NCBI RefSeq assembly: GCF_020035535.1
Contig: NZ_CP083349.1
Coordinates: 186,001-250,000 of the forward strand
Direction: 5' to 3'
Length of the DNA: 64,000 nt
Source of the DNA: Ensifer adhaerens
Lineage (GTDB): Bacteria; Pseudomonadota; Alphaproteobacteria; Rhizobiales; Rhizobiaceae
The notes under the pieces: generated by a model
Databases searched by the model: none
What the model saw: only the letters and a program-made list of their open reading frames with translations
Told to the model about the DNA's origin: nothing
Program-made: the position numbers and the translations under genes
Shown: piece by piece, positions 32,816 through 50,122 of the stretch
Numbering within the stretch: position 1 is the stretch's first letter
How the letters are laid out: each line of letters opens with the position of its first letter

Positions 32816-33826
32816 ATGGGTTTGAGACAAGCATCGGCGCATGAGCGCACCGCGGTTGCGGCTTTGGAGTCGATCGGTCGGACGCTGACGACTGCAATGG
32901 TCGGCATCAAGGCGCTGGCAGATCACCTTGGCTCCGACGAGGCCTTCGCCCGCAACATTGTCGATGCCGTCGAACTGATCGGCGAAAGCCAGGGGCGTGT
33001 CGTCGTCTCCGGCGTCGGCAAGAGTGGCCATATCGGTCGCAAGATCGCCGCGACCCTGGCATCGACCGGCACCTCCGCCTATTTCGTGCATCCGACCGAA
33101 GCGAGCCATGGCGACCTTGGCATGGTCACTTCCCAGGATGTGCTGATCCTGCTTTCCTGGTCGGGAGAGACGGCCGAACTCGCCAACATGCTCACCTATG
33201 CCAAGCGCTTCAATGTGCCGATCGTCTCGATCTGTGCCAACCGCGACAGCGTGCTGGCGCGCAACTCCGAAGTGCCGATCGTCCTGCCCAAGGTGCAGGA
33301 GGCCTGCCCGCACGGCCTCGCGCCGACGACGTCCGCCATGCTGCAGCTCGCCGTTGGCGACGCGCTGGCGATCGCACTTCTGGAACGCCGCGGATTTTCG
33401 GCCGAGGACTTCAAGACATTCCACCCGGGCGGTAAGCTCGGTGCGCAATTGCGGCTGGTCCGCGAACTGGCGCACGAGGGTGCCCAGATGCCGCTGCTGG
33501 AAACGGGACGGCCGATGAGCGAAGCGCTTATCGAAATGTCGTCGAAGGGTTTCGGCGTCGTCGGCATCGTCGAGAACAGTGGCAAGCTTGTCGGCGTGAT
33601 CACCGATGGCGACCTGCGTCGCCACATGTCGGGTGATCTGCTCCTGCAGCCGGTCGAGGCGGTGATGTCACGCAATCCGCGCGTGATCCGCGGTGACGTG
33701 CTCGCCAGCGGCGCCATGGAGTTCATGCAGCAGCACAAGGTGACGGTGCTGTTCGTCGTCGACGATGGGGGAGCACCGGTCAGCATCCTGCATATTCACG
33801 ACCTGCTGCGCGCCGGCGTCGTCTGA
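32816..33826 (+). CDS. kdsD: Arabinose-5-phosphate isomerase (KdsD/KpsF family)
   Basis: A 336-residue cytosolic isomerase that converts ribulose 5-phosphate to arabinose 5-phosphate, the first step to Kdo for LPS and capsule. The N-terminal SIS domain contains VVVSGVGKSGHIGRKIAATL and STGTSAYFVHPTEASHGDLG and ends at FHPGGKLGAQLR. Two CBS domains follow (LIEMSSKGFGVVGIVENSG; VMSRNPRVIRGDVLAS). Length fits the family (about 328). It lies near the Kdo-using capsule genes but in a separate unit. Confidence 0.93.
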   Translation: MGLRQASAHERTAVAALESIGRTLTTAMVGIKALADHLGSDEAFARNIVDAVELIGESQGRVVVSGVGKSGHIGRKIAATLASTGTSAYFVHPTEASHGDLGMVTSQDVLILLSWSGETAELANMLTYAKRFNVPIVSICANRDSVLARNSEVPIVLPKVQEACPHGLAPTTSAMLQLAVGDALAIALLERRGFSAEDFKTFHPGGKLGAQLRLVRELAHEGAQMPLLETGRPMSEALIEMSSKGFGVVGIVENSGKLVGVITDGDLRRHMSGDLLLQPVEAVMSRNPRVIRGDVLASGAMEFMQQHKVTVLFVVDDGGAPVSILHIHDLLRAGVV

Positions 33827-34405: not shown

Positions 34406-34444
34406 TCCTCTTGCTGCTGAATGTCGTTCTGCAAACATGAGGTA

Positions 34445-35617
34445 ATGACGAACATCAATCAATCAGTTTCCGATGGCTCGATCGACAAGGCGCGTATCCC
34501 GCCCTTTGCCTACGTGCTCACCATCTGCATCGGCGTCATCGGCTCCAATTCGCTTGCGCTCGGACCGATCGCGCCGGAAGTGGCGCGAAGCCTTGCGGCC
34601 GACGTTCCAGCCGTCATGACGGCTTCCGCCGCCTTCGGTCTGGGCACGGCGGTCAGCGCCGTCTTTCTTGGCCGCTTCATCGATCGTCATGGCCCGCGTC
34701 GCATGTTGGCTGCTGCCCTCCTACTTCTGGCTGCAGGATTGGGCGGCAGTGCGCTCGCGCCATCGCTTGCGGTCCTCGTCGCTGCCCAGCTCGTCGTCGG
34801 TCTTGCTGCCGGCATTGCACTTCCCTCGATCTATACGCTGGCCTCGGTCATTGCGCCGGCCGGACGGGAGAGCGAGACGATTGGCCTTGTGCTGACAGGC
34901 TGGACTCTCAGCATGGTGGCGGGCGTGCCGTTATCGGCCGCGATCGCTGACTTTGCGGGCTGGCGCGCCGTTTATGTCATCGTCGCATCGGCAACATTGA
35001 TCGCTTGCGCCGCCGTCAAGTTCGCATCAGTGCAGGAAGCTGTCACCGGCAAGGCGACATCGCCGCTGGCGGCATTGAGCGTTCCCGGCGTTGCGCCGCT
35101 TCTGATCGCCTGTGCTGCCTTCATGGCCGCCTTCTATGGCGTTTACGCCTATATCGGCGAGCACTTGCATGTTGCACTTGGCCTGCCGGTCAGCGCCAAT
35201 GGTCTCATCGCGGTTTCCTATGGGTTCGGTTTCGGGGCCGCCGCCTTTCTCGACCGCCTCATTGATCGTTTCAGCGCGGGCGGATTGTTACCATTGATCT
35301 TTCTGGTGGTCGGAGGTGTCTATGTGGCCATGGCGGTGGCAAGCGGCTCCTATACGGCCATGTTGGCCGTCGTCTTCCTCTGGGGGCTTGCCAACCATTT
35401 TGGGCTGAATGTGCTGATCATGCGCCTCACAGGCCTCGATCCCGGCAAGCGCGGCGCGGTCATGGGGCTGAACAGCGGCGTCACCTATCTCGCGCTCTTT
35501 GTCGGCACGATCGGGTTCGGCGCGGCCTATGCTCGGGTCGCTTTCTTCATGCTGCCTTTGGTAGCGGCGGGCCTGATGCTGCTCGCAGCTTTTGTCGTCG
35601 CGACGGCGCGGCGTTAG
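34445..35617 (+). CDS. MFS transporter
   Basis: A 390-residue transporter with 12 predicted helices of the major facilitator superfamily. It starts MTNINQSVSDGSIDKARIPP. The loop 2-3 motif is LGRFIDRHGPRRMLAAALLL, and motif C-like glycines lie in VLTGWTLSMVAGVPLSAAIA, typical of drug:H+ antiporters and sugar/amino-acid exporters. It is divergent from an Lrp-type regulator, so export of an amino acid or related compound is plausible. ATG 34445 is used rather than 34421, which would add an unusual 8-residue leader. Confidence 0.88.
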   Translation: MTNINQSVSDGSIDKARIPPFAYVLTICIGVIGSNSLALGPIAPEVARSLAADVPAVMTASAAFGLGTAVSAVFLGRFIDRHGPRRMLAAALLLLAAGLGGSALAPSLAVLVAAQLVVGLAAGIALPSIYTLASVIAPAGRESETIGLVLTGWTLSMVAGVPLSAAIADFAGWRAVYVIVASATLIACAAVKFASVQEAVTGKATSPLAALSVPGVAPLLIACAAFMAAFYGVYAYIGEHLHVALGLPVSANGLIAVSYGFGFGAAAFLDRLIDRFSAGGLLPLIFLVVGGVYVAMAVASGSYTAMLAVVFLWGLANHFGLNVLIMRLTGLDPGKRGAVMGLNSGVTYLALFVGTIGFGAAYARVAFFMLPLVAAGLMLLAAFVVATARR

Positions 35618-35648: not shown

Positions 35649-36974
35649 TCACGCGGACGAGGCGATTCTTGACCGTTTTTCCGGCTTGCGGCGGGGCGGC
35701 GGGTCGACAAAAGCGCCGGGCTGGTTGAGGCTGTTCTCACTGAGGCGCTTGGCAATCGCCTCTGCACCCGCATCGCTTCCGGCGCGCGAATAAAGATTTC
35801 CACGCACCTGGATCGAGGCGGCGAGCAGGCGGAACATCGCATTCGCCAGGTCCGGTTCCGGTGCCTGCGGTGCGCCCCAGAAATCATCGAGCGACTGCTG
35901 ATCGGTCAGTCCGGCGATATCGAACACGGCGGTGCCGAGCACCTTCACCGGTCGCCCCTGCTTCAAGGCATGCAGACCGGCCGTAGAATTGACCGTGACC
36001 ATGCCTGCACTGGCCTCTCCGAGCGTATCGAGGTTGCCGCCATCGAGATAGAAGACACGCCCGCCGAGACCCAGCGCGGCTGCTCGTTCTTCGATGATCC
36101 TGCGCCAGGGGATCAGGTCGTTGTCGAGCGGGTGCACCTTGAAGACGAGGCGTGCGTCGCGCGCGGCAAAGGCGGCGAAGGAAGCCAACGCCTCGGCGAT
36201 CGCGTCCTTCTGGCTGTGGAACGGTGAGTGCGCCCTGAGCTGGAAATCGGTTTCGAGCTGCAGCGGATAAACGAAATAGGGGGCGTCATCCGAAAGCAGC
36301 TTGGCAACGGTCGTCTCGGCCTCGGCATTGCGCCGCTTTTCGGTCACGAGCCGGCGAATCCAGCCCGCATACTCGGCAAGCGGATGGAAGATCGCGTGGC
36401 GTCGATAGTGCGGGAAGAGAAACCAGAGAAAGACGTTCGGCAGATTGTAGAGCAAGTCATAGCTCGCATCGGCGAGGAACGTCTGGCTGTAATGCTTGCG
36501 CCAGTCCGGCTCGGGCACGCCCGCTGCCGCTGCAAGTATCTGCACGGGATCAGCAGGGAAATGCGAATTCGAGGACATGCCATTGCGCTCTAGCGTCAGC
36601 CAGTCCGGTCGCAGATACCCCATCTCGATAATGGCGACGCTAACGCCTGCGCGCCGTGCGACCGCGGTTGCTGCCTGGTGGTACGCCCGCTCCTCACCGA
36701 GCATGAGCATGTCGGTGACGCCGTGCTGCGCGACGAAGGTCGTGAGATAGGCAGGCCAGTCGGCTGCCGTGCCACGATAATTGTACGCACCCTTGCGGCC
36801 CCAGATGATCTGGTCGCCGACATTCAGGTTGATCCTCAGGCACGTGTGCCCGCGAGCTTCGAGCCGGTCAGCGATCTTGCGGAAGATCGACGAAGAGGGT
36901 CCCTGCAGGAACAGGAATACCCGTCGCTTTGGCCGATTGGCCGCTCCGGTCGATGTCATCGAAGCGTTTTCCAT
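35649..36974 (-). CDS. rkpJ: Capsule polysaccharide biosynthesis protein, KpsS-like (RkpJ)
   Basis: A 441-residue cytosolic protein of the capsule-synthesis family that includes KpsS. KpsS and KpsC are retaining beta-Kdo transferases that build the Kdo linker on the lipid anchor of group 2 capsules. Visible motifs are RRVFLFLQGPSSSIFRKIAD at the N terminus, YFVYPLQLETDFQLRAHSPF, LVFKVHPLDNDLIPW, and VTVNSTAGLHALKQGRPVK. Start ATG 36974 (MENASMTSTG) follows the rkpI stop by 13 bases. It is the last gene of the rkpAGHIJ operon; the S. meliloti RkpJ assignment rests on order and family. Confidence 0.85.
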   Translation of the reverse strand: MENASMTSTGAANRPKRRVFLFLQGPSSSIFRKIADRLEARGHTCLRINLNVGDQIIWGRKGAYNYRGTAADWPAYLTTFVAQHGVTDMLMLGEERAYHQAATAVARRAGVSVAIIEMGYLRPDWLTLERNGMSSNSHFPADPVQILAAAAGVPEPDWRKHYSQTFLADASYDLLYNLPNVFLWFLFPHYRRHAIFHPLAEYAGWIRRLVTEKRRNAEAETTVAKLLSDDAPYFVYPLQLETDFQLRAHSPFHSQKDAIAEALASFAAFAARDARLVFKVHPLDNDLIPWRRIIEERAAALGLGGRVFYLDGGNLDTLGEASAGMVTVNSTAGLHALKQGRPVKVLGTAVFDIAGLTDQQSLDDFWGAPQAPEPDLANAMFRLLAASIQVRGNLYSRAGSDAGAEAIAKRLSENSLNQPGAFVDPPPRRKPEKRSRIASSA

Positions 36975-36987
36975 TCGTCCACCGCCG

Positions 36988-38580
36988 CTACCGCAGCGTA
37001 TCCTTTCTGAGGTTGGCGTGGTTGAGCAGGTCTTCGACCAAATTCCAGGCCTCGACGTTGCTCGGTTCCACCGGCTTGTGGGAGGACGACTTTGCCTTGG
37101 CAAGCGGTACGATCAGGTAGTCGGTGCGCGGATCGGGGAAGGGATCGGCAAAGGATTTGAGCAGCGGCGCATGGTCGCCGTAGAACACGAGCCAGACCGG
37201 GCGGTCCAGCTTGTCCAGGCGCTCGCTGAGCGTGTTCAGGGCAGCGTCGGATTGTTCCAGAATGGCCAGATAGATATCGACGGGATTGGCAAGATCGTCG
37301 ACGCGGCCCGGTTCCCATGGGCCGTGATTGGCCATGGACGCAACGAAGATGAAACCGCTTTCGTCCTCAGGCAGTTCTTCGCAGGCGTCGATCACCTTGG
37401 CTGCGAGCTTCTCGTCGGAGACGTAAGGCCCGTCTCTTTCGGGCCGATGGTCGAAGCCGTCGAGCATCGTCAGCTTGGAAAAGCCGAGCTGCGGCATCGC
37501 CTTGTGGCGAAGGAAGAAGGTGCGGTCATAGGGATGGATGAAATGCGTGTTCCAACCGGCACGCTTCATCTTCCCCGGCCAGACCACGTCCGCATAGTGC
37601 GAGGCCCTGAGATAGGGGTAGCTGGCGTCGACGTGGATGTCGTCAGGCACGAGACCGCTGATGACGGCGAACTCCGTGCGCAGCGTATAGCCGCCTTCAA
37701 AGACGCTGCTGAGCCGGCCCCATTGCACCGCCTCGCGACGCAGCCGGTCCAGGGTCGGCATGTTGAGCGTGTTGACGCCGAAGTGCCGCATGTCGATGAA
37801 GGATTCCGATTGCCAGACCACGATCAGCGGCGAGCCGTCGTCACCGATCAGATCATGCACGGCCGCGCGGACGATCTCGGAGAGTTCGGCGACGATCTTT
37901 TCACGCCGCACGCCAAGCCAGACGATGAAGCGGAAAACGACCGAGCCGAAGGTGCCGAAGCGCACCGTATTCATCTTGACGTCGAGCACCTTCAGCAGTC
38001 TTTGCACCAGCGCCGCCGTCGGGCGGTTGACCGGACCGTAGAAGAGCAGGAGCCAAGGGCCGTAGGCGATGCCGAGCATCAGGAGGATCCAGAACGCTTT
38101 GCCGCGATCAGGCAAAATGGCCGGCTCGAAATACATGTAGAGGCCCGACACGCCGAAGACATAGAGAAAGGCGACGGTCCAGAAGACGACGTTCAGCGAA
38201 CTCGCGTAGAAAATCGTCTTGTACTTGAAGACGTCGACGACGAGCGCGATATCCGAAAAGATCAGCGGTTCACGGATGAACTTGAACTTGGCGCGGGAAA
38301 TGCCGGTGAAAATGATGAAGAAGCTCATCGTACCGGCTGCGGCATAAAGCGGCCGCCAGGAGCCGGCGAAGAAGCCGGCAAAGACCAGCGCGATGACCGG
38401 CAGGCGGGCGAGCGCATCAATCACATCCTGCGTCCGTCCGAACGGCGAGGGGTGGGCACGCCGCTCCCGCTTCGGCAGTGCAAAGCGGTCGGTAAAGAAG
38501 ATCACCGCACAGGACAGCACGTAACAACAGAGCGTCAGTGTTCTTGGGTAGTCGTGCAGCTGAAAGGGAAGCAACGCCAA
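36988..38580 (-). CDS. rkpI: Membrane sulfatase/LtaS-type transferase (RkpI)
   Basis: A 530-residue inner-membrane protein. Four or five helices occupy the first 200 residues, followed by a periplasmic alkaline-phosphatase-superfamily domain. This contains LIVVWQSESFIDMRHFGVNT (metal region), GGYTLRTEFAVISG (candidate Thr nucleophile), VASMANHGPWEPG and VWLVFYGDHAPLL, the C-terminal metal ligands. LtaS and EptA relatives transfer phosphoglycerol or phosphoethanolamine. TTG 38580 follows AAGG and is the best start. It sits between the lipid-making genes and rkpJ, suggesting that it modifies the capsule lipid or sugar. Confidence 0.85.
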   Translation of the reverse strand: MALLPFQLHDYPRTLTLCCYVLSCAVIFFTDRFALPKRERRAHPSPFGRTQDVIDALARLPVIALVFAGFFAGSWRPLYAAAGTMSFFIIFTGISRAKFKFIREPLIFSDIALVVDVFKYKTIFYASSLNVVFWTVAFLYVFGVSGLYMYFEPAILPDRGKAFWILLMLGIAYGPWLLLFYGPVNRPTAALVQRLLKVLDVKMNTVRFGTFGSVVFRFIVWLGVRREKIVAELSEIVRAAVHDLIGDDGSPLIVVWQSESFIDMRHFGVNTLNMPTLDRLRREAVQWGRLSSVFEGGYTLRTEFAVISGLVPDDIHVDASYPYLRASHYADVVWPGKMKRAGWNTHFIHPYDRTFFLRHKAMPQLGFSKLTMLDGFDHRPERDGPYVSDEKLAAKVIDACEELPEDESGFIFVASMANHGPWEPGRVDDLANPVDIYLAILEQSDAALNTLSERLDKLDRPVWLVFYGDHAPLLKSFADPFPDPRTDYLIVPLAKAKSSSHKPVEPSNVEAWNLVEDLLNHANLRKDTLR

Positions 38581-38677
38581 GCGGAAACCTTCATGTCTTC
38601 ATGCCGGCCGAAGCCGCTTCATGCGGCACAGCGTCCGCCCGACACTTAGATCTTATCGCCTGGACGTACAAGCGCAG

Positions 38678-39517
38678 TCAGGTCTGGCGCTCAGACACTC
38701 CACTATTATGCGTCGCGGTGTTGCTGCCACGCGCAATCGCCCTGTCGAACCACCAGTTAAGCAACGGGCGGATGGCCGGCGCGAAGCGGCCGAGGAGAAA
38801 GAGCGTTGTGCCGAAGTAGACTTCGAACCGTCCCCGGTCGATCCCCTTGACTATCGCTTTCGCCACGGCCTCCGCCGGCCAGGGACGGACCGTGCCCATG
38901 ATGATGGCGGCCTCCGGCGGGCGGCTTGCAAGCTCACGCTGAAACTGCGGGGTCTCCGTATCCGGCGGAAAACACACGGAAACACTGACGCCATGGGCGC
39001 AGGCTTCCGAGCGCAGCGCCTGGGCGAAGCCGTGCAGCGCGAATTTCGACGCGCAATAGGCCGAATAGCCGTAGATACCGATGAGGCCGGCGCCGGACGA
39101 GATCATCATGATCCGACCGCGCCCGCGCCGCTTCATGCCGTCATAGACTGAGCGGACCGCATGCACGGTACCGGAGAAGTTGATGTCCATCTGGCGGCGG
39201 AACGAAACGCTGTCGAGCTCCTCGAAACGGCCGGGCTCGACGATGCCTGCCGATGTCACGAGGATGTCGCAGGCTCCGAAGACCTGTTCGCACCTTAGGA
39301 CCGCCGCCTCGACGTCGTTTTCCGAAGCGACATCGGCAGCTTCGATCCTGATGTTGCCGGCACTGCCCCCGCTGGAAGTTGCCAGCTTCGCTTGCGCTTG
39401 TTCCAGAAGGTCGCGGGAACGGGCGATCAGCGAGACGCGCGCCCCGCGCGCCGCATAGATCGATGCGACCGAAAATCCGATACCGCTCGAGCCACCGGTG
39501 ATGATCACATGCGTCAT
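38678..39517 (-). CDS. rkpH: Short-chain dehydrogenase/reductase (RkpH)
   Basis: A 279-residue NAD(P)-dependent reductase starting MTHVIITGGSSGIGFSVASI, the Rossmann glycine motif. The catalytic Ser is in MMISSGAGLIGIYGYSAYCA, with YSAYCASKFALHGFAQALRS giving the Tyr and Lys. Sequence style and length resemble 3-ketodihydrosphingosine reductases, and it follows an alpha-oxoamine synthase gene (RkpG), so it may reduce the amino-ketone that RkpG makes. Known in S. meliloti rkp-1 as RkpH. A weak hydrophobic C terminus may anchor it. Confidence 0.88.
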   Translation of the reverse strand: MTHVIITGGSSGIGFSVASIYAARGARVSLIARSRDLLEQAQAKLATSSGGSAGNIRIEAADVASENDVEAAVLRCEQVFGACDILVTSAGIVEPGRFEELDSVSFRRQMDINFSGTVHAVRSVYDGMKRRGRGRIMMISSGAGLIGIYGYSAYCASKFALHGFAQALRSEACAHGVSVSVCFPPDTETPQFQRELASRPPEAAIIMGTVRPWPAEAVAKAIVKGIDRGRFEVYFGTTLFLLGRFAPAIRPLLNWWFDRAIARGSNTATHNSGVSERQT

Positions 39518-39532
39518 GCTGATATTCCGCCC

Positions 39533-39600
39533 TAGAGCAAATTCCGGAAAGGCGCCAAGCGGGCTTGCGTCCGGTTTTGTGCGAATGCAAGACGACCGCA
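39533..39600. repeat. Dispersed rhizobial repeat remnant
   Basis: AGAGCAAATTCCGGAAAGGC, then CCAAGCGGGCTTGCGTCCGG, is clearly related to the reverse complement of 59066-59120. It sits between rkpH and rkpG and upstream of the rkpH start. It belongs to a family often seen between rhizobial genes. Confidence 0.5.
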
Positions 39601-39614
39601 CACGTGGATGGCTC

Positions 39615-41030
39615 TTAGCGCGCCGAGAGCGCCTTCATCATCTGATCGATGTCGATGCCGCCCAGTCCGAAGTTTCGCTCGGTGAGATCTGTCAGTCGTT
39701 CCGCGGTCAATGTCACCGTCCGGCGGATCTGTTCTTCCGTGTGATCGCTGGTGATGAAGAAGCGCAGGCGCGCAAGCCCCTCGGGTACCGCCGGGTGGAT
39801 GATCGGCAGCGCATTGACCCCTTCGGCAAGCAGGTCATTCGAAAGCTGAACGGCGCGCAGGGAATCCCCAACCAGAACCGGGACAACGGAAAAGCCGCTG
39901 CTAAGGCCCGTGTCGAGGCCGGCTTCCTTGGCAAGCTTCAGGAACAGGGCACCGTTGCGGCGCAACGCCGCCGTCCGCGCCGGTTCGCGTTCCAGTACCT
40001 CGAGGCTCGCGGTTGCTGCGGCCGCCAGCACGGGCGCAAGGCCGACGCTGTAGACGAAGCCGCCTGCGGATGCCTTCAGCACCTCGACCAGTGCTTCGCT
40101 GCCGGCGATGTAGCCGCCGCAGCTCGACGTGGTTTTCGACAACGTGCCCATCCAGATGTCGATCTCGCGTGGATCGACGCCGAAATGTTCGGCAAGGCCG
40201 CGTCCGGTCTTGCCGAGAACGCCGAGCGAGTGTGCCTCGTCGACCATCAGCCAGAAGCCGTATTCGGCCCTAAGCTTCAAAAGCGCAGGCAGATCGGCGA
40301 CATCGCCGTCCATCGAGTAGATACCCTCGACGATCACCATGATGCGGCGATAGTCGCCAGCAACCGTGCGTAGTACGTGTTCGAGGTCGGCGACGTCGTT
40401 ATGCTTGAACAGGCGCCGGGTCGCGCCCGAAAGCTTGATGCCGGCAAGCGCGCTGTTGTGGATGAATTCGTCGTGGACCACGAGGTCCTTCGGGCCCATC
40501 AAACAGCTGATGGCGGCGACATTGGTCAGATAGCCGCTGACGAAGCAGACGGCGGCGTCCACGCCGTAGAAGCTTGCGATCTTCTCTTCGAGCGCCACGT
40601 GCACTGGCCGTTCGCCGGCAACGAGGCGGCTTGCCGACGCGGAGATACCGAAGGTGCCGATCGTATCCCTTGCCTTCGCCAGCACCTCCGCATGGCGGTT
40701 GAGGCCGAGATAGTCGTAGGAGGCGAAGTTGATCAGCTTGCGGCCGTCGATGACGGTCGTCGCCCCGGCCGCGGTCTGGTGCGCGCGATAGAACGGATTG
40801 GCGATGCCAAGCTGCTCGCTTGCGAACTTCTGAGTCATGACCTGCTTGTATTCGGGCAGATCTTCGAAACGGGCCTGCTGACGGCGTGCCGGCGGCGGCA
40901 TCTCCCGCTCCGAGCGCGCCATGCGGTTGCGCTCGGAGGATTGATGCGTATTTCGCATCCGGTCCAGCAGGTTCTCCTTGAGGCTGCTGGTCATCTTGGA
41001 TGCGCCTGGACCGTTTCCGTTCGTGCTCAT
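39615..41030 (-). CDS. rkpG: Alpha-oxoamine synthase-like PLP enzyme (RkpG)
   Basis: A 471-residue fold-type I PLP enzyme of the family that includes BioF, serine palmitoyltransferase and KBL. Features are FYRAHQTAAGATTVIDGRKL, INFASYDYLGLNRHAEV, DEAHSLGVLGKTGRGLAEHF (AOS region around PLP) and the Schiff-base Lys in IWMGTLSKTTSSCGGYIAGS. Family members join an acyl thioester to an amino acid with loss of CO2. Its start overlaps rkpA by ATGA, so RkpA's ACP-bound chain is the likely acyl donor. The 70-residue N-terminal extension is unusual for BioF. Confidence 0.9.
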   Translation of the reverse strand: MSTNGNGPGASKMTSSLKENLLDRMRNTHQSSERNRMARSEREMPPPARRQQARFEDLPEYKQVMTQKFASEQLGIANPFYRAHQTAAGATTVIDGRKLINFASYDYLGLNRHAEVLAKARDTIGTFGISASASRLVAGERPVHVALEEKIASFYGVDAAVCFVSGYLTNVAAISCLMGPKDLVVHDEFIHNSALAGIKLSGATRRLFKHNDVADLEHVLRTVAGDYRRIMVIVEGIYSMDGDVADLPALLKLRAEYGFWLMVDEAHSLGVLGKTGRGLAEHFGVDPREIDIWMGTLSKTTSSCGGYIAGSEALVEVLKASAGGFVYSVGLAPVLAAAATASLEVLEREPARTAALRRNGALFLKLAKEAGLDTGLSSGFSVVPVLVGDSLRAVQLSNDLLAEGVNALPIIHPAVPEGLARLRFFITSDHTEEQIRRTVTLTAERLTDLTERNFGLGGIDIDQMMKALSAR

Positions 41031-44000
41031 TGGCTCTGTGCTTTTTCCTTCGCCGTTCCGACGTGCCGCTGTGCGAGATCGCTGACGATCTTGTCGTCGG
41101 CGGGCTCGGCATCGTCGCTCTGGTCGCGCTTGCTGACCTTCTCATAAAGCTTGCGGGCGACATCGCCAACCGTCGTGTTGTCCGCGACCCCGCTGAGCGG
41201 CATGTCGAAGCCGGTGTTCTGCTGGAAGCTCATACCGAGTTCGACGGCCATCAAGCTGTCGAGGCCGATTTCCTTCAGCACCTTGGCGCGCGTGACCGTA
41301 TCCTTCGATACGCGCAGGATTGCGGCGATCTCGCCGGCCACGAGGTCGAAGAGAATGTCTTCGGCTTCCTGCGGCGACTTGCCTTCGATCATCGCGACCA
41401 GGTCCATCTTGGTGCCTTCGCCGCCTGCGGCGTGCTGGTCGGCGCTGCGCAGGATGACTTCGAAGAGGGCATTCTTGGCGACCGGCAGATTGCGCGCGGC
41501 CGACCAGTCGATCTCCGAGATCATGACGGTCGCCGCATCGACGGTGCCGGGGTCGAAGGCGAGGTGGCTTTCGACCATGTCGAGCGCCGTCTGCGCCTTC
41601 AGCGCCGTCTTGCCGATGCGCTTGGCGAGCAGGTCGTTCACATCGGTGTTCTGGGCCAGGTAGCCCGTGTCGGCAATTGCGCCGAAGCCGACGGCAAGAC
41701 CCGCAAGACCGCGGGCGCGACGGGCGCGGGCGAGACCTTCGAGGTAGCCGTTGGCAGCGACGTAGTTCGCCTGCCCCGGGTTGCCGACGAGTGTCGTCGC
41801 CGAGGAGAACAGGATGAAGTTGTCGAGCGTGTCGTCCTTGGTCAGTTGATCGAGAACGGCAGCACCCTTGGCCTTGGTATCAATGACCGGGCGGTTGCGC
41901 TCACGATTGAGATTGCTGATCAGCGCGTCGTCGAGCACCATCGCCGCGTGGACGATCGAGCGAAGCGGGGCGATTGCGCGCAGCTCTTTCAGCATACGCT
42001 CGGTTGCTGCCGGATCGGTGACGTCGCAGGCACGGACCGTGACGGAGACGCCGACCTTCGTCCAGGCTTCGATCATCGCGGTCGTTTCGGCATCCGCCTG
42101 TCCCCGGCGCGAGCAGAGGGCGATTTTCGTCGCTCCCTTTTCGACGAGCCAGTTGGCGGCAGCCAGACCGAAACCGCCGATACCGCCGACCACGAGATGC
42201 ATGCCGTTCGGATCGACCTTCATGCCGCCATGCGGGCGCTTGGCGACGCGGTGCATGCCGGCAACCGGCGGCAGCACGACGATCTTGCCGATGTGGCCGG
42301 CATTCTGCATCAGCCGGAAGGCGTTGCCGATCTCATCGAAGTCGAAGGCGCGATAGGGAAGCGGCGTGAGCTTGCCATCTTCAAACAGCGCGCCGATCTC
42401 GGTGAAGATCCGCTTGGTGAGTTTCGGCTGGTTGACCAGCAACTGGTCGGCATCGATGCCGAAGTAGCTGACATTGCGACGGAAGGGCCTAAGGCCAATC
42501 TTGCTGTCGGCATAGTAGTCGCGCTTGCCGAGTTCGAGGAAGCGCCCGAAGGGCTTCACCAGCGCCAGGCTCTGCTCCATCGCTTCGGCAAAGAGCGAGT
42601 TGAGGACGAGATCGACACCCTCTCCGTCCGTCACGGCGCGGACGTCGTTGACGAAGCCGAGCGAACGCGAATCGAAGACATGATCGGCGCCGAGCATCGA
42701 GAGGAAGCGACGCTTCTCGCGTGTGCCGGCCGTGGCAATAACCTTGGCGCCCTTGAGTTTCGCGACCTGCAGCGCGGCAAGGCCGACGCCACCGGCAGCA
42801 CCGTGGATGAGGATCGTCTCGTCCGGCTGGATCCGGCCGAGTTCCACCATGGCGTAGTAGGCCGTGAGGAACGCGACAGGAACCGTTGCTGCGGCGACCG
42901 GGCTGACCGACTGCGGCAGCCGGGCGACGCCGGCGCGCGAGACGACGGCATGGGTCGAGAAGGCGGAGGACGCGATCGCCATGACGGCGTCACCGGCGGC
43001 GAGATCGTCGACTCCTGGGCCGACGGCAACGACGTGGCCGGAAAGTTCCATGCCGATCGTTGCGCCTGCGAAACCGTCTTCCAGTGCCTCTTCGGGCAGC
43101 AGGCCCATCGCCCACATCACGTCGCGGAAGTTCAGGCCGGTGGCTGCGACCTCGACGACGACTTCACCCGAACCTGCCGAGGGAATGTCGCTCTCTTCCC
43201 AGACGATGCTGCCCACCTGTGAGCTGACGCGCTGGCGGATCGTTGCGGCCTTGAAGGTGTCGATCGCCGCATGGGCGTTGTCGACTGGGCCGGGTACGGC
43301 GCGGATTTCGGAAAGCGCCGCGTCTTTTCCTTCCAGCAGCCACTCGCGGTTGACGGTGACGCTGCCGAGCAGCGGACGTGCTGCCGCGATCTGCTCGATC
43401 GTGGTCGGCGAACCATCGATATCGAGCGCGTGCACATCGAGGAATTCGTATTCGTTTTGAAGCACGCGGGCGAAGGCCCAGAGACCGGCATTGACGCCGT
43501 CACTTGCAACCGTTTCACCGGTCGCCCGGCTCGCGATCGGGGCTCCACCTGGCGCGACGAGCACGAGACGCGGGCGATTTTCGCCTGACGGCTCGGCTCC
43601 GCCGATGTGCTGTCGCAGAGCTTCGGCGAACGCACCGAGAGCAAGGATCTGCGCCTGCAGCGAGGCGGAATCGTCTTCCCGGGATGTGGCGGCCGGCGAC
43701 GCAAGGAAGATCGCCCGCAGCGGCTGGTCGCCAAAGGTTTCGAAGCCGCTGAGAAGGGCTGCCTTGTCGGCGACGATATCACCGCTCAGATTCACGGGAA
43801 TAGCCGGCGTCGAAGGCTTGCTGTCCTTGCCGCCTGCGGTCTGCAGCAGCAGATACGGGCCGGCGGCCGGTGCTTCGGCGCTTACCGAAGCCGCGGCGGC
43901 GCCGCGCGCTTCGAGCAGGATGACATTGCCGCTGGCGCATTCACGGTCGGCGATATCGACGTCGCGCAGATCGAGATCTCCGAGACATTTCTGCCAATGC

Positions 44001-47000
44001 GGGGCGGCCGCAAGATTGCCGATCGGGAACTCCGCTGTCTGACTGCGGGCGAACCATCCTTCGGAAAGCCCGAGGGCGAAATCGTTGAACAGCGACGGCG
44101 CGCTGACGGCGGCAATCAAGCCGCCGGTGTCGCGCAGCGCCGAGCGAAGTGCGGTGCGAACCGCAACGTCGTCCTCGATCAGGCTGTAGAGACCGTCGGA
44201 CGCGCTGACCACGAGATCGAAGGACGTAAGCGTTGCCAGCTCACCCTTCTTGAGAATGCGCACGTGGGCATCGTTCTCGAAGGCGAGCTCCAGGCCACGC
44301 TGGGCGTTGTCACGCGCTTCGAAGACGGTCAGGCTGGCGGCGTGCTTTTCGGCAAGCGTTGCCAGGCGGCGGGTGAACGCGGCCGAAACGCTGCCGATTT
44401 CGACGACGCGCAGGCGCGTACCGGGTGTCGCAGCCAGAGATTTTTCGAGCGCGTCGAGAACGAACGCCATCCGTTCTCGACTTGCCTCCGAGTGGACGGC
44501 CTGATGGTCGAGCGTGGCATCGCTGATGAACGTGGTGCCGAGGGATCCTTCGTCGCCGGCCTGCAGAGCATCAAGGCGCGCAAGAGCTTCCGCATAGGCA
44601 TTGTTGATCAAGACGGCTTCGACGGCGCGATCCGAGCGTTCGCCATAGAGTTCGCGCAGGATTTCCGGGACGCTCGGCAGATTGAAGTCCTGAGCAATCG
44701 TCCAGACACCGTCCCTGTGTTCGCAGAGACCGGCGTCCTCCAACACGTAGAGGCAGCTCGTCAGGAAACACTGAAACGCAAAATCGCCGGGCAGGTTGTT
44801 GCCTTGAAGGGTCGGTCGGCCCTTGGCGAGTTTGAGGGCAATCTCCTGACAGGCGCGATAGATGGCGGCGTTGAAAAGCAAGGTCGTATTGTCGACGCCG
44901 GCCTCGCTGGCGTCAGGCATGGCGATCTTGATCGGCGTCGGTGCCTTGCCCTGCAGACCCGGCAGCGCGGATTCCGATTGCACTGCCTCGTAGTGGAAGG
45001 ACAGCGCATCGAGCGTTTTGTGCTTGCGCAAATAGGTGCGGCGGAAGCGGCAATCCTCGAAGTGGGCGATCGGCGCGCCCGACTTGTCGAAGAAGTGGAA
45101 CTTCGCCTTGATCGAGTTGGGGCTGACGCGCTCGATCTCGATCATCGCGCGCGCGATTGGCTGGCTGCCGTTGACGACCCGCACCGAACCGAAGCGAACG
45201 GGGATATACGGGGCACCGCTCTTGTCGCCGGTGAAGCGATCGAACAGGGCGACGAGCCCGTGGAAGGTCGCATCGACCGAAATCGGGTTCAGCGCATAGG
45301 TGACGAGCGGGTGACCGGCTACATCGGGTGTCTTCAGCTCGACATCAACCAGCCGATCGCCATAGGCGACGGCCTTGGCCAGCAGCTGGAAGCGCGGGCC
45401 GTAGTCAAGACCGAACTGTTTTGCCGTCTCGTAAGCACGCGCGGGTGCGACCGTTGCGGTCTTCGCCAAGCCGGCAAGCGACGGATAGGCGCGCTCCTCG
45501 GCCGGCAATGGCTTGCGGCAGCGGGCAACCGCATGCACGGCCCAATCGTCTTCCGACAGCCGCTCGCGCGAACGGATCTCGATGTCGCCGGTCTCCGGCG
45601 AAAGCACCGTCGACAGCTCCATGATCTTCGTGTCGCTGAGCTCCAGCGGCCGGACGATTTCGAGATTGGTGATCTCGACCTCGTCGCTGCCATAGAATTG
45701 CTGTGCTGCAGCCACGGCGATTTCGATGAAGCCGCTGCCTGGCAGGATCGCCTTGCCGTCCACGACGTGTTCGGCAAGGTCCGGGAAGAGATGCGCATCG
45801 ACATGGTTCTTCCAGCTGCCGCTGTTCGGGTCGCTGCGCCAGCCGGTCAAACGGTAAGGCTTCTCGGTCCGGCCGAAGAGGTCGGTCGCGTCGGTTGTTG
45901 CCGCAGGGCGCAGTTCGACGGGCTCGAACGGCAGGCTGGGCAACGCGATCGACGCGTTGCGCTTGCCGAAGACGCGGGCCGTGTCGACGACCGCGCCATG
46001 TGCGACGGCACGCGCCATCGCTGCCGAAATCGGGTCCTGGCCAGTTTCGCCGACGTCCCGCAGCAGGGTCGGCACGACCATGCCCGGGGCCGCAGCCTGC
46101 TTGATCGTCTCCTTCACATAGGACGACAGGATCGGACGCGGCGAAATCTCGATGAATAGGCGGCAGCCCATCTCGATTGCAGCTTCGGCGGCCGCCTGGA
46201 AGCGGACCGGCTCGCGCACGTTCTTCCACCAGTAGTCCGGATCAAGCTGCGTGCCCTCGAGAGCGGCACCCGTCACCGTCGACAGATAGGCGAGTTCGGT
46301 GCGGCGCGGCGCGATATCCGGAATATCCGAGAGGAAGGCGTCCTTCGCCCGATCGATGATCGGATGGTGGAAGGGATAGTTGATGTCGAGGATCTGGACC
46401 GGAATCTTCGCCTTGCGCGCGGCGTCGCGGAAGCTCGAAATCTGATCGGCCGGCCCGGAGATCGTCACGGAATTGTGGGCATTGATTGCGGCAACGCAGA
46501 GCTCGTCAAGGCCGCGTGCTTCGGCGAAGGCGCGAGCGGCCTCTTCCCCGAGCATCACGGCGGCCATCGTTCCGTGACCGGCAAGCAGATCCTGATGCAG
46601 CGAGCGCTTCGCCACGATCGAAACGGCGTCGACCAGCGACAGCGCACCGGCGGCATAGGCGGCGGCGATCTCGCCGACGGAGTGACCGAAGACCGCAACC
46701 GGCTTGACGCCCATGGCGACCAGCGAATCCGACAGTGCAGCCTGCACCGCAAAGAGCAGCGGCTGTGCGATCTTTGTATCGCCAAGCTTCTTGTCGAGGT
46801 CTGGATCGGTGAGAAGATCTGTCAATGCGATGTCGGAGTGGAACTTGAACAGCGCGCTGACGGACGTGAAACACTGACGGAAATGCAGGTTCTCGCGGAA
46901 GGCCTCGACACCCATGCCGGCCCATTGCGAGCCATTGCCGGAGAAGACGAAGGCGACCTTGGCATCGCGGGCGACGGCTTCGCCGATCTCGCCGATGCCG

Positions 47001-48532
47001 GAGCCCGGCTTTTCCAGATGGCTGGCAATCGCGCGGACGATATCTTCCGGCTGGTCGCTGCGAGCGGCGAAGCGATGGCGCATATGGGTGCGGTTCGCAC
47101 CCGATGCGGCGATCATCGAACGGGCTTCGCCCTTGGAAGCATGCGCGAATGCCGCCTTGTAGTCGTTGAGAAGCGCCTCCAGGCTCGACGCCGTATGAGC
47201 ACTCGCCAGGAAAACATGACCGGAAGACGACGGGTTCGACGCCTTTTCGTCGGCCGCGGGTTCCGGGTCGCTGATGACGACGTGCGCATTGGCGCCGCCG
47301 AAACCGAACGAGTTGATGCCGGCGAGCCGGGTGCGCTTTCCGCGCAGAAGCTCGATCGGGTTCGCCGTGACGCGCACGTTGAGACCGTCGAAGTCGATGT
47401 GCTCGTTTGGCGTGTCGAAGTGCAGCGAAGCTGGCAGGTAGTTGTTTTCGAGCGCCATTACGGCCTTCAGCATGCCGAAGAGGCCGGAGGCGGGTTCCGT
47501 ATGACCGATGTTCGACTTGATCGAACCGATCGGCACTGGCGCCCGGCGCTTGGCGCCGATGACCGTTCCGATCGACCAGACTTCGGCCGGATCGCCGACC
47601 TTGGTGCCGGTGCCGTGGCCTTCGACAAAGGCCACCTGGTTGGCATCGATGCCGTTGCCTTCGTAGATCGCCCTCAAGAGATTGGCCTGCGCCTCGCGCG
47701 AAGGCAGCGAGATGCCGTTGGTGCGGCCGGCCGAGTTCACGCCGGTCGCGACGATCCGCGCGTAGCTGCGATCCTTCTCCCGGCGCGCCCGATCCGAGCG
47801 GCGTAGAACGAAGACCACGCCACCTTCGGCGCGCACATAGCCTGCGCCGTCGTTGTCATAGGCGCGGCACAGGCCCTCCGGCGACAGCATGCGCGCCTGG
47901 GCGAAGCCGACGAAGGGCAGGGGGTGAGCAAGGATGTTGACGCCGCCGACGATCGCGGTGTCGATTTCGCCCGAGTTCAATGCCCGCATCGCCTGGTCGA
48001 GCGCGACCAGCGAGGAGGAACAGGCAGTATCGACCGTCATGCTGGGGCCGCTGAGGCCGAAGATATGGGAGATACGGTTGGACACGATCGACAGCGTATT
48101 GCCGGTCATGAAGTAAGGGCCGGCCGCTGCCGGGTCTTCCACCGTCAGGTTGGCATGGTCGAGGCTCGATGCGCCGATATAGACGCCGACATTCTCTCCC
48201 TGCAGCGATGTCGCCGAGATATTGGCGTCCTCGAGCGCGCGCCAGGCGAGCTGGAGCAGCACGCGCTGCTGCGGATCCATATACATGGCTTCGCGCTGCG
48301 ACATGCCGAACACGGCAGGGTCGAAATCATAGAGTTGGTCGAGCACGCCGGCGGCAAAGGAATAGGTCTTGCCCTGCGTGCCCATGACGGGGTGCCAAAA
48401 ACGCGCGACGTCCCAGCGATCCGACGGAATGCTGGTGACGGTGCACTTGCCTTGACGGAGAAGTTTGAACAACGCCGAAGGCGATTCTGCTCCAGGGGCG
48501 AGGCATGCACGCCCAATAATCTCAACAGCCAT
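41027..48532 (-). CDS. rkpA: Iterative type I polyketide/fatty-acid synthase (RkpA)
   Basis: A 2501-residue megasynthase. In order it has: ketosynthase with Cys171 in DTACSSS, His306 in GHGTGT and His344 in NIGHTEP; acyltransferase with Ser618 in GHSVG; dehydratase near residue 920 with HVVDGKAILP; a degenerate methyltransferase-like region (about 1350-1460); enoylreductase (about 1765-2095, HGAAGGVGLAALQVAKL); ketoreductase (about 2120, VVGGIGGFG); and ACP with its Ser near residue 2424 in GLDSL. It can therefore fully reduce its chain. There is no thioesterase, so release needs another enzyme, probably RkpG. It was known first as rkpABCDEF of S. meliloti, where mutants lack K-antigen. Antisense long frames here are shadows. 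Confidence 0.95.
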   Translation of the reverse strand: MAVEIIGRACLAPGAESPSALFKLLRQGKCTVTSIPSDRWDVARFWHPVMGTQGKTYSFAAGVLDQLYDFDPAVFGMSQREAMYMDPQQRVLLQLAWRALEDANISATSLQGENVGVYIGASSLDHANLTVEDPAAAGPYFMTGNTLSIVSNRISHIFGLSGPSMTVDTACSSSLVALDQAMRALNSGEIDTAIVGGVNILAHPLPFVGFAQARMLSPEGLCRAYDNDGAGYVRAEGGVVFVLRRSDRARREKDRSYARIVATGVNSAGRTNGISLPSREAQANLLRAIYEGNGIDANQVAFVEGHGTGTKVGDPAEVWSIGTVIGAKRRAPVPIGSIKSNIGHTEPASGLFGMLKAVMALENNYLPASLHFDTPNEHIDFDGLNVRVTANPIELLRGKRTRLAGINSFGFGGANAHVVISDPEPAADEKASNPSSSGHVFLASAHTASSLEALLNDYKAAFAHASKGEARSMIAASGANRTHMRHRFAARSDQPEDIVRAIASHLEKPGSGIGEIGEAVARDAKVAFVFSGNGSQWAGMGVEAFRENLHFRQCFTSVSALFKFHSDIALTDLLTDPDLDKKLGDTKIAQPLLFAVQAALSDSLVAMGVKPVAVFGHSVGEIAAAYAAGALSLVDAVSIVAKRSLHQDLLAGHGTMAAVMLGEEAARAFAEARGLDELCVAAINAHNSVTISGPADQISSFRDAARKAKIPVQILDINYPFHHPIIDRAKDAFLSDIPDIAPRRTELAYLSTVTGAALEGTQLDPDYWWKNVREPVRFQAAAEAAIEMGCRLFIEISPRPILSSYVKETIKQAAAPGMVVPTLLRDVGETGQDPISAAMARAVAHGAVVDTARVFGKRNASIALPSLPFEPVELRPAATTDATDLFGRTEKPYRLTGWRSDPNSGSWKNHVDAHLFPDLAEHVVDGKAILPGSGFIEIAVAAAQQFYGSDEVEITNLEIVRPLELSDTKIMELSTVLSPETGDIEIRSRERLSEDDWAVHAVARCRKPLPAEERAYPSLAGLAKTATVAPARAYETAKQFGLDYGPRFQLLAKAVAYGDRLVDVELKTPDVAGHPLVTYALNPISVDATFHGLVALFDRFTGDKSGAPYIPVRFGSVRVVNGSQPIARAMIEIERVSPNSIKAKFHFFDKSGAPIAHFEDCRFRRTYLRKHKTLDALSFHYEAVQSESALPGLQGKAPTPIKIAMPDASEAGVDNTTLLFNAAIYRACQEIALKLAKGRPTLQGNNLPGDFAFQCFLTSCLYVLEDAGLCEHRDGVWTIAQDFNLPSVPEILRELYGERSDRAVEAVLINNAYAEALARLDALQAGDEGSLGTTFISDATLDHQAVHSEASRERMAFVLDALEKSLAATPGTRLRVVEIGSVSAAFTRRLATLAEKHAASLTVFEARDNAQRGLELAFENDAHVRILKKGELATLTSFDLVVSASDGLYSLIEDDVAVRTALRSALRDTGGLIAAVSAPSLFNDFALGLSEGWFARSQTAEFPIGNLAAAPHWQKCLGDLDLRDVDIADRECASGNVILLEARGAAAASVSAEAPAAGPYLLLQTAGGKDSKPSTPAIPVNLSGDIVADKAALLSGFETFGDQPLRAIFLASPAATSREDDSASLQAQILALGAFAEALRQHIGGAEPSGENRPRLVLVAPGGAPIASRATGETVASDGVNAGLWAFARVLQNEYEFLDVHALDIDGSPTTIEQIAAARPLLGSVTVNREWLLEGKDAALSEIRAVPGPVDNAHAAIDTFKAATIRQRVSSQVGSIVWEESDIPSAGSGEVVVEVAATGLNFRDVMWAMGLLPEEALEDGFAGATIGMELSGHVVAVGPGVDDLAAGDAVMAIASSAFSTHAVVSRAGVARLPQSVSPVAAATVPVAFLTAYYAMVELGRIQPDETILIHGAAGGVGLAALQVAKLKGAKVIATAGTREKRRFLSMLGADHVFDSRSLGFVNDVRAVTDGEGVDLVLNSLFAEAMEQSLALVKPFGRFLELGKRDYYADSKIGLRPFRRNVSYFGIDADQLLVNQPKLTKRIFTEIGALFEDGKLTPLPYRAFDFDEIGNAFRLMQNAGHIGKIVVLPPVAGMHRVAKRPHGGMKVDPNGMHLVVGGIGGFGLAAANWLVEKGATKIALCSRRGQADAETTAMIEAWTKVGVSVTVRACDVTDPAATERMLKELRAIAPLRSIVHAAMVLDDALISNLNRERNRPVIDTKAKGAAVLDQLTKDDTLDNFILFSSATTLVGNPGQANYVAANGYLEGLARARRARGLAGLAVGFGAIADTGYLAQNTDVNDLLAKRIGKTALKAQTALDMVESHLAFDPGTVDAATVMISEIDWSAARNLPVAKNALFEVILRSADQHAAGGEGTKMDLVAMIEGKSPQEAEDILFDLVAGEIAAILRVSKDTVTRAKVLKEIGLDSLMAVELGMSFQQNTGFDMPLSGVADNTTVGDVARKLYEKVSKRDQSDDAEPADDKIVSDLAQRHVGTAKEKAQSQ

Positions 48533-48940: not shown

Positions 48941-50122
48941 TTGAAACGAGTCAGTGCCCTTCTGCTTTGTACCGCCCTCGTGGGATGCCAGGCCGTTCCG
49001 GGCGAGGGGCCGCTGGCCGGAGCGATCGTCAAGGATGCCGGTCAGTCCGGCGCGGAGATCGGGCGCCAGAATGCGACCGTCTTCGATATCGTCGAAGTGG
49101 ATGGCCGCACCGCGCGCCTCGTTTCCGATTATGTCTCCTCGACGCTCAACCGTCGTTTCGGCATTGGCGGCGGCGTCGGCCGAGTCGTCATCGGTGTCGG
49201 CGACGCATTGAAGGTGTCGATTTTCGAGGCCGGCAGCGATGGTCTGTTCTCGACGCAGGATTCCAAGCAGACAAGCATCGATCTCGTCGTCCAGCCGGAT
49301 GGCAAGGCTGCGATCCCCTATGTCGGTCCGGTCAACTTTGCCGGCCTGACACTGGAACAGGCGCGTCAGGAAATCCTGGAAGCGCTGAAGCAGAAGGCGG
49401 TCGAGCCGGATGTCATCGTCACCAGCATGAGCACCGCCTCGCGCAACGTCACCGTTTCGGGTGCCGTCGGTAAGTCGTCGGTCGTGCCGCTCAGCCTCGT
49501 CGACGAAACGATCAACGAAGTGATCGCCAAGGCGGGTGGTCCCGTCGCCCAGCCCTACGAGACCTATGTCACGTTGGTGCGCGGCAAGAAGACCGGCACG
49601 GTTCTTCTCAAGTCAATCATCGAGAACCCGTCCGAGAACATCCACGTAAAGCCTGGAGACCAGATTTTCGTTGCACGCGATCCGCGTCGTTTCACGATCC
49701 TGGGCGCCGTCAAGGCCAACCAGCGCGTCGAATTTGGTGCCAACGACCTGAACCTGCTCGAGGCCATGGGTCTTGCCGGCGGTGGCGCGGACTATACGCT
49801 CGACATGAAGGGCTACTTCATCTTCCGTTACGAAGAGCCTGATGTGGTCATGAGCCTGCTCGGCCAGCAGCGCTTCAATGAGATGCTGCGCAAGGGCATG
49901 AAGACCGACAGCATGGGCCGCTACCCGATCGTCTATCGCTTCGACATGAGCAAGCCCGATAGCCTGATCGTCGGCCAGACCTTCCCGGTCAAGAACCGCG
50001 ACGTCATTTATGCCTCGCGCCATCCGTCGGTCGACTTCTCGAAGTTCCTCAACTTCATCGCCCAGCCGGTCGGCATCGCCAATTCCGGCTTCGCGATCGC
50101 GGACAACCTCAACGGCAATTGA
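48941..50122 (+). CDS. rkpU: Outer-membrane polysaccharide export lipoprotein, Wza/KpsD-like (RkpU)
   Basis: A 393-residue export protein. The N terminus KRVSALLLCTALVGCQ is a lipoprotein signal with a lipobox LVGC. Then come a polysaccharide-export (Wza-type) domain with IGVGDALKVSIFEAGSDGLF and VQPDGKAAIPYVGPVNFAGL, and SLBB-like repeats such as VTVSGAVGKSSVVPLSLVDE and RFTILGAVKANQRVEFGAND. Such proteins form the outer-membrane channel for capsule. It starts at TTG 48941 with GGAG upstream, and diverges from rkpA as expected for rkpU. Confidence 0.88.
   Translation: MKRVSALLLCTALVGCQAVPGEGPLAGAIVKDAGQSGAEIGRQNATVFDIVEVDGRTARLVSDYVSSTLNRRFGIGGGVGRVVIGVGDALKVSIFEAGSDGLFSTQDSKQTSIDLVVQPDGKAAIPYVGPVNFAGLTLEQARQEILEALKQKAVEPDVIVTSMSTASRNVTVSGAVGKSSVVPLSLVDETINEVIAKAGGPVAQPYETYVTLVRGKKTGTVLLKSIIENPSENIHVKPGDQIFVARDPRRFTILGAVKANQRVEFGANDLNLLEAMGLAGGGADYTLDMKGYFIFRYEEPDVVMSLLGQQRFNEMLRKGMKTDSMGRYPIVYRFDMSKPDSLIVGQTFPVKNRDVIYASRHPSVDFSKFLNFIAQPVGIANSGFAIADNLNGN

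Follow-up and report, generated by a model that had tools for sequence, protein, structure and literature searches.

The window analysed here, a stretch of 64,000 nucleotides (C1:186001-250000), belongs to a genome of 8.1 Mb in three contigs. It contains, at positions 35649-48532, five open reading frames (ORFs) on the minus strand which the initial annotation had assigned to rkpA, rkpG, rkpH, rkpI and rkpJ, and all five were found at these positions. The gene names were assigned because the domains and the order of the genes match the descriptions in PMC7902896 and PMC3557214; they do not derive from a comparison with proteins of a reference strain. Judged from its sequence, the locus is an Ensifer-like rkp-1 region, and the nearest named RkpG proteins also come from Ensifer. 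The cluster is composed as follows.

41027..48532, minus strand: rkpA, 2501 residues, single-chain reducing polyketide/fatty acid synthase (PKS/FAS) with ketosynthase (KS), acyltransferase (AT), dehydratase (DH), apparently inactive methyltransferase-like region, enoyl reductase (ER), ketoreductase (KR) and acyl carrier protein (ACP), without thioesterase
41027..41030, minus strand: ATGA, overlap of the rkpA stop and the rkpG start
39615..41030, minus strand: rkpG, alpha-oxoamine synthase (AOS), Aminotran_1_2/AOS protein
38678..39601, minus strand: rkpH, classical short-chain dehydrogenase/reductase (SDR), proposed 3-keto reductase
36988..38580, minus strand: rkpI, Sulfatase-superfamily protein with membrane helices and a GacH/LtaS-type catalytic domain
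35649..37103, minus strand: rkpJ, KpsS-like protein of the Kdo (3-deoxy-D-manno-octulosonic acid) transferase family, Capsule_synth PF05159, 340.9 bits

According to the translations, the true start probably lies downstream of the ORF start in rkpH (ATG at 39517) and in rkpJ (ATG at 36974).

Pfam analysis of RkpA identified KS, AT, DH, ER, KR and ACP domains and gave no match to a thioesterase, which bears out the earlier view of RkpA as a reducing iterative synthase lacking this domain. Its parts are distributed along the gene in the following way.

47072..48526, minus strand: KS domain, residues 3-487, DTACSS and HGTGT intact
46046..46951, minus strand: AT domain, residues 528-829, with GHSVG and YPFH
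45038..45826, minus strand: DH domain, residues 903-1165, HxxxGxxxxP present
43238..44995, minus strand: DH-ER spacer, residues 1180-1765, degenerate methyltransferase-like region
42275..43225, minus strand: ER domain, residues 1770-2086
41672..42205, minus strand: KR domain, residues 2110-2287
41153..41341, minus strand: ACP domain, residues 2398-2460, with GLDSL
41030..41152, minus strand: C-terminal tail following the ACP, LAQRH motif, proposed docking element

The motifs DTACSS, HGTGT, GHSVG, HVVDGKAILP and GLDSL are intact, and the KR stretch contains GGIGGFG and YVAAN. The F-H pair of YPFH suggests a malonyl extender unit. With KS-AT-DH-ER-KR-ACP in one chain, no thioesterase and adjoining capsule genes, RkpA was placed in the WcbR/RkpA group, an assignment made from domain layout and neighbours and not from comparison with reference RkpA or WcbR sequences. 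For comparison, 103 full-length RkpA-like ORFs were taken from the fetched loci, some genomes being counted twice. Of these, 97 have GHSVG; the second AT motif was sought in 101 and reads YPFH or YAFH in 96. Pfam gave no match over the approximately 600 residues between DH and ER of RkpA, and the S-adenosylmethionine motif pattern was found in none of the 103 ORFs; from its sequence, this region looks like a dead methyltransferase.

RkpG displays Lys299, His191, Asp264 and Arg423 on fold type I, as expected for the AOS family; we take these to be the lysine binding pyridoxal 5'-phosphate (PLP), the stacking histidine, the cofactor aspartate and the carboxylate-binding arginine, respectively. 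An alignment of 28 RkpG proteins shows the PLP lysine and every other AOS catalytic residue unchanged in all 28. The initial annotation had assigned RkpG to the serine palmitoyltransferase (SPT)/BioF family. Membership among the AOS was supported by these residues and by Pfam, while the narrower labels were not supported. RkpG remained below the cut-offs of the SPT models NF047603 (212.2 of 670 bits), NF047600 (297.6 of 640) and NF047599 (277 of 500), and of the BioF model TIGR00858 (368.8 of 426.45). It was also found outside the SPT-type clade, 15 rows which grouped without it at 100/100; this clade label is ours, given to alphaproteobacterial sequences scoring 456-835 bits with NF047603, just one of them over the cut-off. 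With the same model, no AOS in the genome of the window scores higher than 247 bits. Since RkpG lies outside this clade and under every SPT cut-off, serine as its substrate is a guess. The RkpG clade has its own signatures (HNS instead of HAS, SVGxxP, RLRFF). It shares EG-YSM, DEAHS and T-x-S-K with the SPT-type rows, motifs not found in the glycine enzymes of the window genome; several RkpG relatives have DDAHG. That genome carries, on different contigs, two AOS genes (G000:C1:2584712-2585779 and G000:C2:362993-364060) with identical protein rows and glycine-acyltransferase-like motifs.

The claim that rkpG is coupled to rkpA through ATGA was confirmed at 41027-41030, and the RkpA stop is overlapped by a start codon on the RkpG side in 67 of 110 pairs. 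A phylum survey of 398 genomes, with up to four candidates scored per genome, revealed RkpG relatives (E 1e-75 or better) in at least 25 genomes and at least 27 places. Twenty of these 27 adjoin an RkpA-type synthase, one is fused to a different PKS (locus L042), and for six no synthase was found within the fetched DNA. In 80 named loci, which were picked by similarity to PKS-linked RkpG and are not an unbiased sample, the RkpA C-terminal end is located directly upstream of RkpG in 79 (exception L138), with a median distance of 66 bases between profile ends. Conversely, 34 places match the ER-ACP part of RkpA; RkpG is adjacent in all 17 scoring at least 490 bits and in 2 of the 17 weaker ones. 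Recurrence in 79 of 80 loci indicates that the arrangement is not due to chance. In locus L041 (genome G169), KS-AT-DH-ER-KR-ACP-AOS form one protein of 2610 residues (L041:9838-17667), and this natural fusion suggests that the chain passes from the ACP to the AOS.

Several of these loci show further features. The L041 fusion adjoins genes for an inositol-phosphate synthase and for HlyD, FtsX/MacB-type, ABC and OEP export proteins. The second, different fusion combines AMP-binding, ACP, KS, DH, ACP and AOS in one protein (L042:2201-8008); it adjoins a protein with a cyclic-nucleotide domain and an AOS (L042:371-2191), and next to it are also a GNAT gene and an MMPL transporter gene. An LpxC-family deacetylase gene is inserted between the RkpA and RkpG genes in Ralstonia pickettii (L154:8920-9807, 527 bits for a cut-off of 423) and in a relative (L055:8442-9377).

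The facing ends of both proteins are conserved. The tails following the ACP of RkpA-type proteins are about 24-57 residues long, and 55 of 61 non-redundant tails contain the motif hydrophobic-(A/V/I/L/R/S)-x-(Q/R/S/T/M/K/E)-His (first position also T or A), against 6.7 +/- 2.3 (maximum 15) after shuffling; the histidine is present in all 61. The proposed partner lies in RkpG.

40908..40985, minus strand: basic helix at the N-terminus of RkpG, residues 16-41, modelled with low confidence (pLDDT about 50)

With the N-terminus set by the start codon overlapping the rkpA stop, 27 of 32 non-redundant N-termini show a basic hydrophobic-helix pattern, which shuffled sequences match in 6.0 +/- 2.1 cases (maximum 12), and the first 50 residues of RkpG have a median net charge of +4. 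From the start (first Met or ORF) to YDYLG there are 103 residues in RkpG and 44-52 in five of six PKS-free AOS, the length being ambiguous in the sixth (L059). The RkpA tail is missing in the L041 fusion. Since both patterns were written after viewing the sequences, which are homologous, they indicate conservation and not independent origin. We infer from the sequences that the RkpA tail and the RkpG N-terminus are docking elements; alternatively, the RkpG helix could bind the membrane.

RkpH, initially described as like 3-ketosphinganine reductases, is a generic SDR of the classical type by its best matches among PDB sequences. The ketosphinganine reductase TSC10 (8jat) scored 71.5 bits, behind dozens of other SDRs and near the bottom of the best 60 of 623 PDB sequences. 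RkpI retains E259, T299, R358, H419, D469 and H470 in 18 of 18 proteins, the residue set of GacH/LtaS-type enzymes; by comparison with these, we assume that it comprises the catalytic threonine, the metal ligands and a substrate-binding arginine. RkpI, initially described as LtaS-like, is nearer to GacH than to LtaS: a search of PDB sequences at E 0.001 retrieved two sequences of GacH and no others, and GacH was the best PDB chain by both sequence and fold (20-23 % identity). The membrane part shows four hydropathy peaks, and five long helices in the model. RkpJ matches PF05159, in agreement with a KpsS-like protein of the Kdo transferase family, and does not reach the cut-off of the KpsS beta-Kdo transferase model NF050054 (201.8 of 600 bits). 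It is the sole PF05159 gene of the window genome at E 1e-10, and no KpsC was found there. In Rhizobium sp. 32-5/1 (L119:12326-13950), rkpI is in two overlapping pieces in different frames, which may reflect a real break or a sequencing error, and rkpJ also gives two matches.

Additional evidence came from loci of the AOS clade that is sister to RkpG. L059 and L061 each carry, about 1.4 kb from the AOS gene, a gene whose match to the sphingolipid delta-4 desaturase domain PF08557 exceeds the cut-off. Among the 398 genomes, with part of the first-look candidates scored, at least seven match this domain at E 0.01 and at least four above cut-off, L059 and L061 being two of the four. Loci L062, L066 and L080 combine the AOS with an inositol-phosphate synthase, an RkpH-like SDR (36-40 % to RkpH), a CTP_transf_1-type gene (CdsA-like in L062, 53.8 bits for a cut-off of 385) and LptF/LptG-type genes. 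By their gene content, these clusters (the first at L062:8973-17109) look like inositol-sphingolipid clusters with their own Lpt-type export; all three are alphaproteobacterial and also contain a glycosyltransferase gene. The inositol-phosphate synthase domain adjoins an RkpG-type AOS in G067, G262 and G169. Finally, a GNAT-like family with weak Pfam matches only is found by the AOS in 7 of 120 loci, namely the PKS-free L059-L061 and the PKS-linked L044, L051, L121 and L058 (9.5 kb off). The presence of desaturase, GNAT-like or inositol-phosphate synthase genes beside sister AOS genes supports a sphingoid-type chemistry. An ACP-bound donor is not unusual for it, since the SPTs of three Rhodobacteria favour an ACP-bound acyl chain (PMC9386255).

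Taken together, the pairing in 79 of 80 loci, the PKS-AOS fusion, the coupling, the end motifs and the sister clade by genes of sphingolipid and inositol-lipid type support the PKS/FAS-to-AOS-to-SDR logic proposed initially, with the corrections given above for RkpG, RkpH and RkpI. What the sequences show is the class of each enzyme, the intact catalytic residues, the coupling of rkpA and rkpG, the fusion and the gene context. The following pathway is proposed. RkpA would make a reduced acyl chain and hold it on its own ACP. RkpG would dock on RkpA, and a PLP-bound amino acid, most likely serine as a guess, would attack the ACP thioester; with loss of CO2, the chain would be released as a 3-keto-2-amino lipid. 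RkpH would reduce the ketone to give a sphinganine-like amino alcohol. RkpI may then add phosphoglycerol, probably from phosphatidylglycerol (PG), to the lipid or to a structure built on it, and RkpJ may start or extend Kdo with this lipid as acceptor, just as KpsS uses lyso-PG. The final lipid would serve as carrier or anchor in K-antigen export. We infer the amino acid, the chain length, any N-acylation, the head group, the order of RkpI and RkpJ and the anchor role. Off-loading of RkpA by RkpG as an amino-ketone is considered likely, and a sphingoid-type product probable. That this lipid forms the capsule lipid terminus is conceivable, slightly short of an even chance, and addition of phosphoglycerol to it by RkpI is tentative. 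The pathway from RkpA to RkpJ as a whole is given an even chance.

Several observations weigh against this pathway. RkpG lies outside the SPT-type clade and below the SPT cut-offs, and the AOS of the window genome stay at or under 247 bits with NF047603; RkpH is a generic SDR. Desaturase, inositol and three of the seven GNAT-like links sit in sister loci and not in rkp-1 itself, and the rkp-1 loci of Rhizobiaceae yielded no gene of these kinds. Inositol-phosphate synthase, present in 36 of 398 genomes, is not a rare gene; the window genome carries one on another contig. Both end patterns are post hoc, and two unfused pairs (L058 and L063) lack the RkpA tail as well. Among the 103 RkpA-like ORFs the active-site patterns were unmatched in 3 (KS), 30 (DH histidine motif), 8 (ER) and 10 (KR), hence full chain reduction is uncertain for some members. 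Within the fetched DNA, where many contigs are short, RkpI was detected in 26, RkpJ in 34 and an SDR in 37 of the 80 loci; RkpI and RkpJ are thus not obligatory neighbours of RkpA-RkpG. We know of no report of sphingolipids from Sinorhizobium. The active site of RkpI is probably periplasmic, outside the membrane, if the domain is oriented as in LtaS. KpsS and KpsC work at the cytoplasmic face (PMC7694667), which makes the order of the last steps uncertain: either RkpI is the last to act and modifies material already exported, or its product comes back.

An alternative, unlikely in our view, is that the K-antigen is carried by ordinary (lyso-)PG, as in E. coli group 2 capsules, and that the lipid of RkpA, RkpG and RkpH is a different one (a signal, a membrane modifier or a cofactor of export), the need for export being indirect. 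E. coli group 2 capsules are not known to need an RkpA-type synthase, which argues against it. The Nitrosomonas locus L133, where export genes (SLBB, ABC2_membrane, ABC_tran and KpsE-type) come after RkpA-RkpG, and four beta- and gammaproteobacterial loci with RkpJ, SDR and RkpI genes near RkpA-RkpG also argue against it. The Rm1021 anchor has reportedly been identified in part as phosphoglycerol with hydroxy-octacosanoic acid. This could be plain lyso-PG and so counts against the sphingoid pathway; it fits a phosphoglycerol head on lyso-PG or on an N-acylated sphingoid alike. As a sphingoid phosphoglycerol yields glycerol phosphate too, a K-antigen ending in phosphatidylglycerol, named initially as a refutation, would not be a clean one. 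In favour of (lyso-)PG, RkpJ belongs to the KpsS family, whose E. coli member uses (lyso-)PG (PMC7694667), and the title of Fraysse 2005, as cited in PMC5539429, mentions a 'phospholipid anchor' for Rm1021.

Similarly improbable is off-loading of RkpA by RkpG with glycine, alanine, cysteate or another amino acid, or later removal of the amine, giving an aminoketone, sulfono- or hydroxyketone lipid. The separate clade of RkpG with its own signatures agrees with it, and so do its structural neighbours (cysteate acyl-ACP transferase, CqsA and 2-amino-3-ketobutyrate ligase). The motifs shared with SPT-type rows (several relatives having DDAHG), the sister clade beside a sphingolipid desaturase in two loci and the keto reductase-type SDR of the operon argue against it. 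The invariant AOS catalytic residues of RkpG make it highly improbable that RkpG is a plain acyltransferase, passing the chain from RkpA to a different acceptor with no decarboxylative condensation, as an older 'acyltransferase-like' annotation of rkpG would suggest.

The sphingoid pathway resembles several known systems. In fumonisin and AAL-toxin synthesis (Fum1-Fum8-Fum13), a reducing iterative PKS without thioesterase is off-loaded by an AOS and the ketone is reduced. RkpA-RkpG-RkpH follow the same logic, with no common descent implied; the fungal Fum8 uses alanine and the product is a secreted toxin and not an envelope lipid. GacH and LtaS share with RkpI the catalytic set and the arrangement of membrane helices and soluble domain; their acceptors are cell-wall polymers, whereas RkpI is encoded in a lipid/capsule operon. 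In Caulobacter, an ACP-bound chain feeds SPT to give 3-oxo-sphinganine, which is then reduced, with AcpR/AasR (PMC9386255); there the fatty acid is ready-made and a synthetase attaches it to a free ACP, whereas the rkp chain would be built on a type I synthase, and RkpG belongs to a separate clade. RkpA is a named member of the WcbR/RkpA capsule PKS group, found with capsule genes (PMC3908369); that work treats the synthase, and RkpG is not discussed as sphingoid-forming in the excerpts available. The E. coli KpsS/KpsC enzymes build a Kdo linker on lyso-PG (PMC7694667) and share PF05159 with RkpJ; the window genome has a single PF05159 gene (E 1e-10), and the acceptor proposed here would be a sphingoid-type lipid.

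A role of rkp-1 in making and modifying a lipid that acts as carrier or anchor, as also suggested initially, has already been described (PMC3557214, a genome paper, and PMC4881576, a review); rkp-1 mutants lack the K-antigen polysaccharide (PMC4881576), and that of Rm1021 bears a lipid anchor (PMC5539429). The proposed sphingoid identity did not turn up in the literature search. The enzyme classes and the operon are known and the chemical reading is new. As far as searched, the following also appear to be new: the placing of RkpG in an AOS clade of its own, whose sister AOS genes adjoin genes of sphingolipid type, the fusion of PKS and AOS, their pairing in nearly all loci, the conserved facing ends and the likeness of RkpI to GacH. 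A sphingoid base with a phosphoglycerol head is a concrete prediction, directly testable by mass spectrometry in Sinorhizobium. If true, it would represent a new class of capsule anchor and bring rhizobia and other capsule formers into the range of sphingoid chemistry; it would also open to study the contact between a bacterial PKS and an AOS, with its short docking-like motifs. A broader proposal, rather doubtful at present, is that the capsules of many alpha-, beta- and gammaproteobacteria leave the cell on a dedicated non-glycerolipid, with a synthase-made chain, a base from a docked or fused AOS, a GacH-like phosphoglycerol head and KpsS-type Kdo. In that case, capsule biogenesis and one bacterial sphingolipid branch would share an ancestral AOS, and the capsule lipid would be a sphingoid mimic of lyso-PG.

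The cluster is flanked by the following genes.

32816..33826, plus strand: kpsF-like gene, SIS and CBS domains, beyond rkpJ, presumably acting in the Kdo precursor pathway
34421-35617, convergent with rkpJ: major facilitator superfamily transporter gene, which may transport a lipid or another product
48941..50122, plus strand: rkpU-like polysaccharide export gene, Poly_export and SLBB domains, divergent from rkpA and named by position as in PMC3557214

The second contig of the genome holds a KpsM/KpsE/KpsT-like export locus, with 25-41 % identity to Nitrosomonas proteins.
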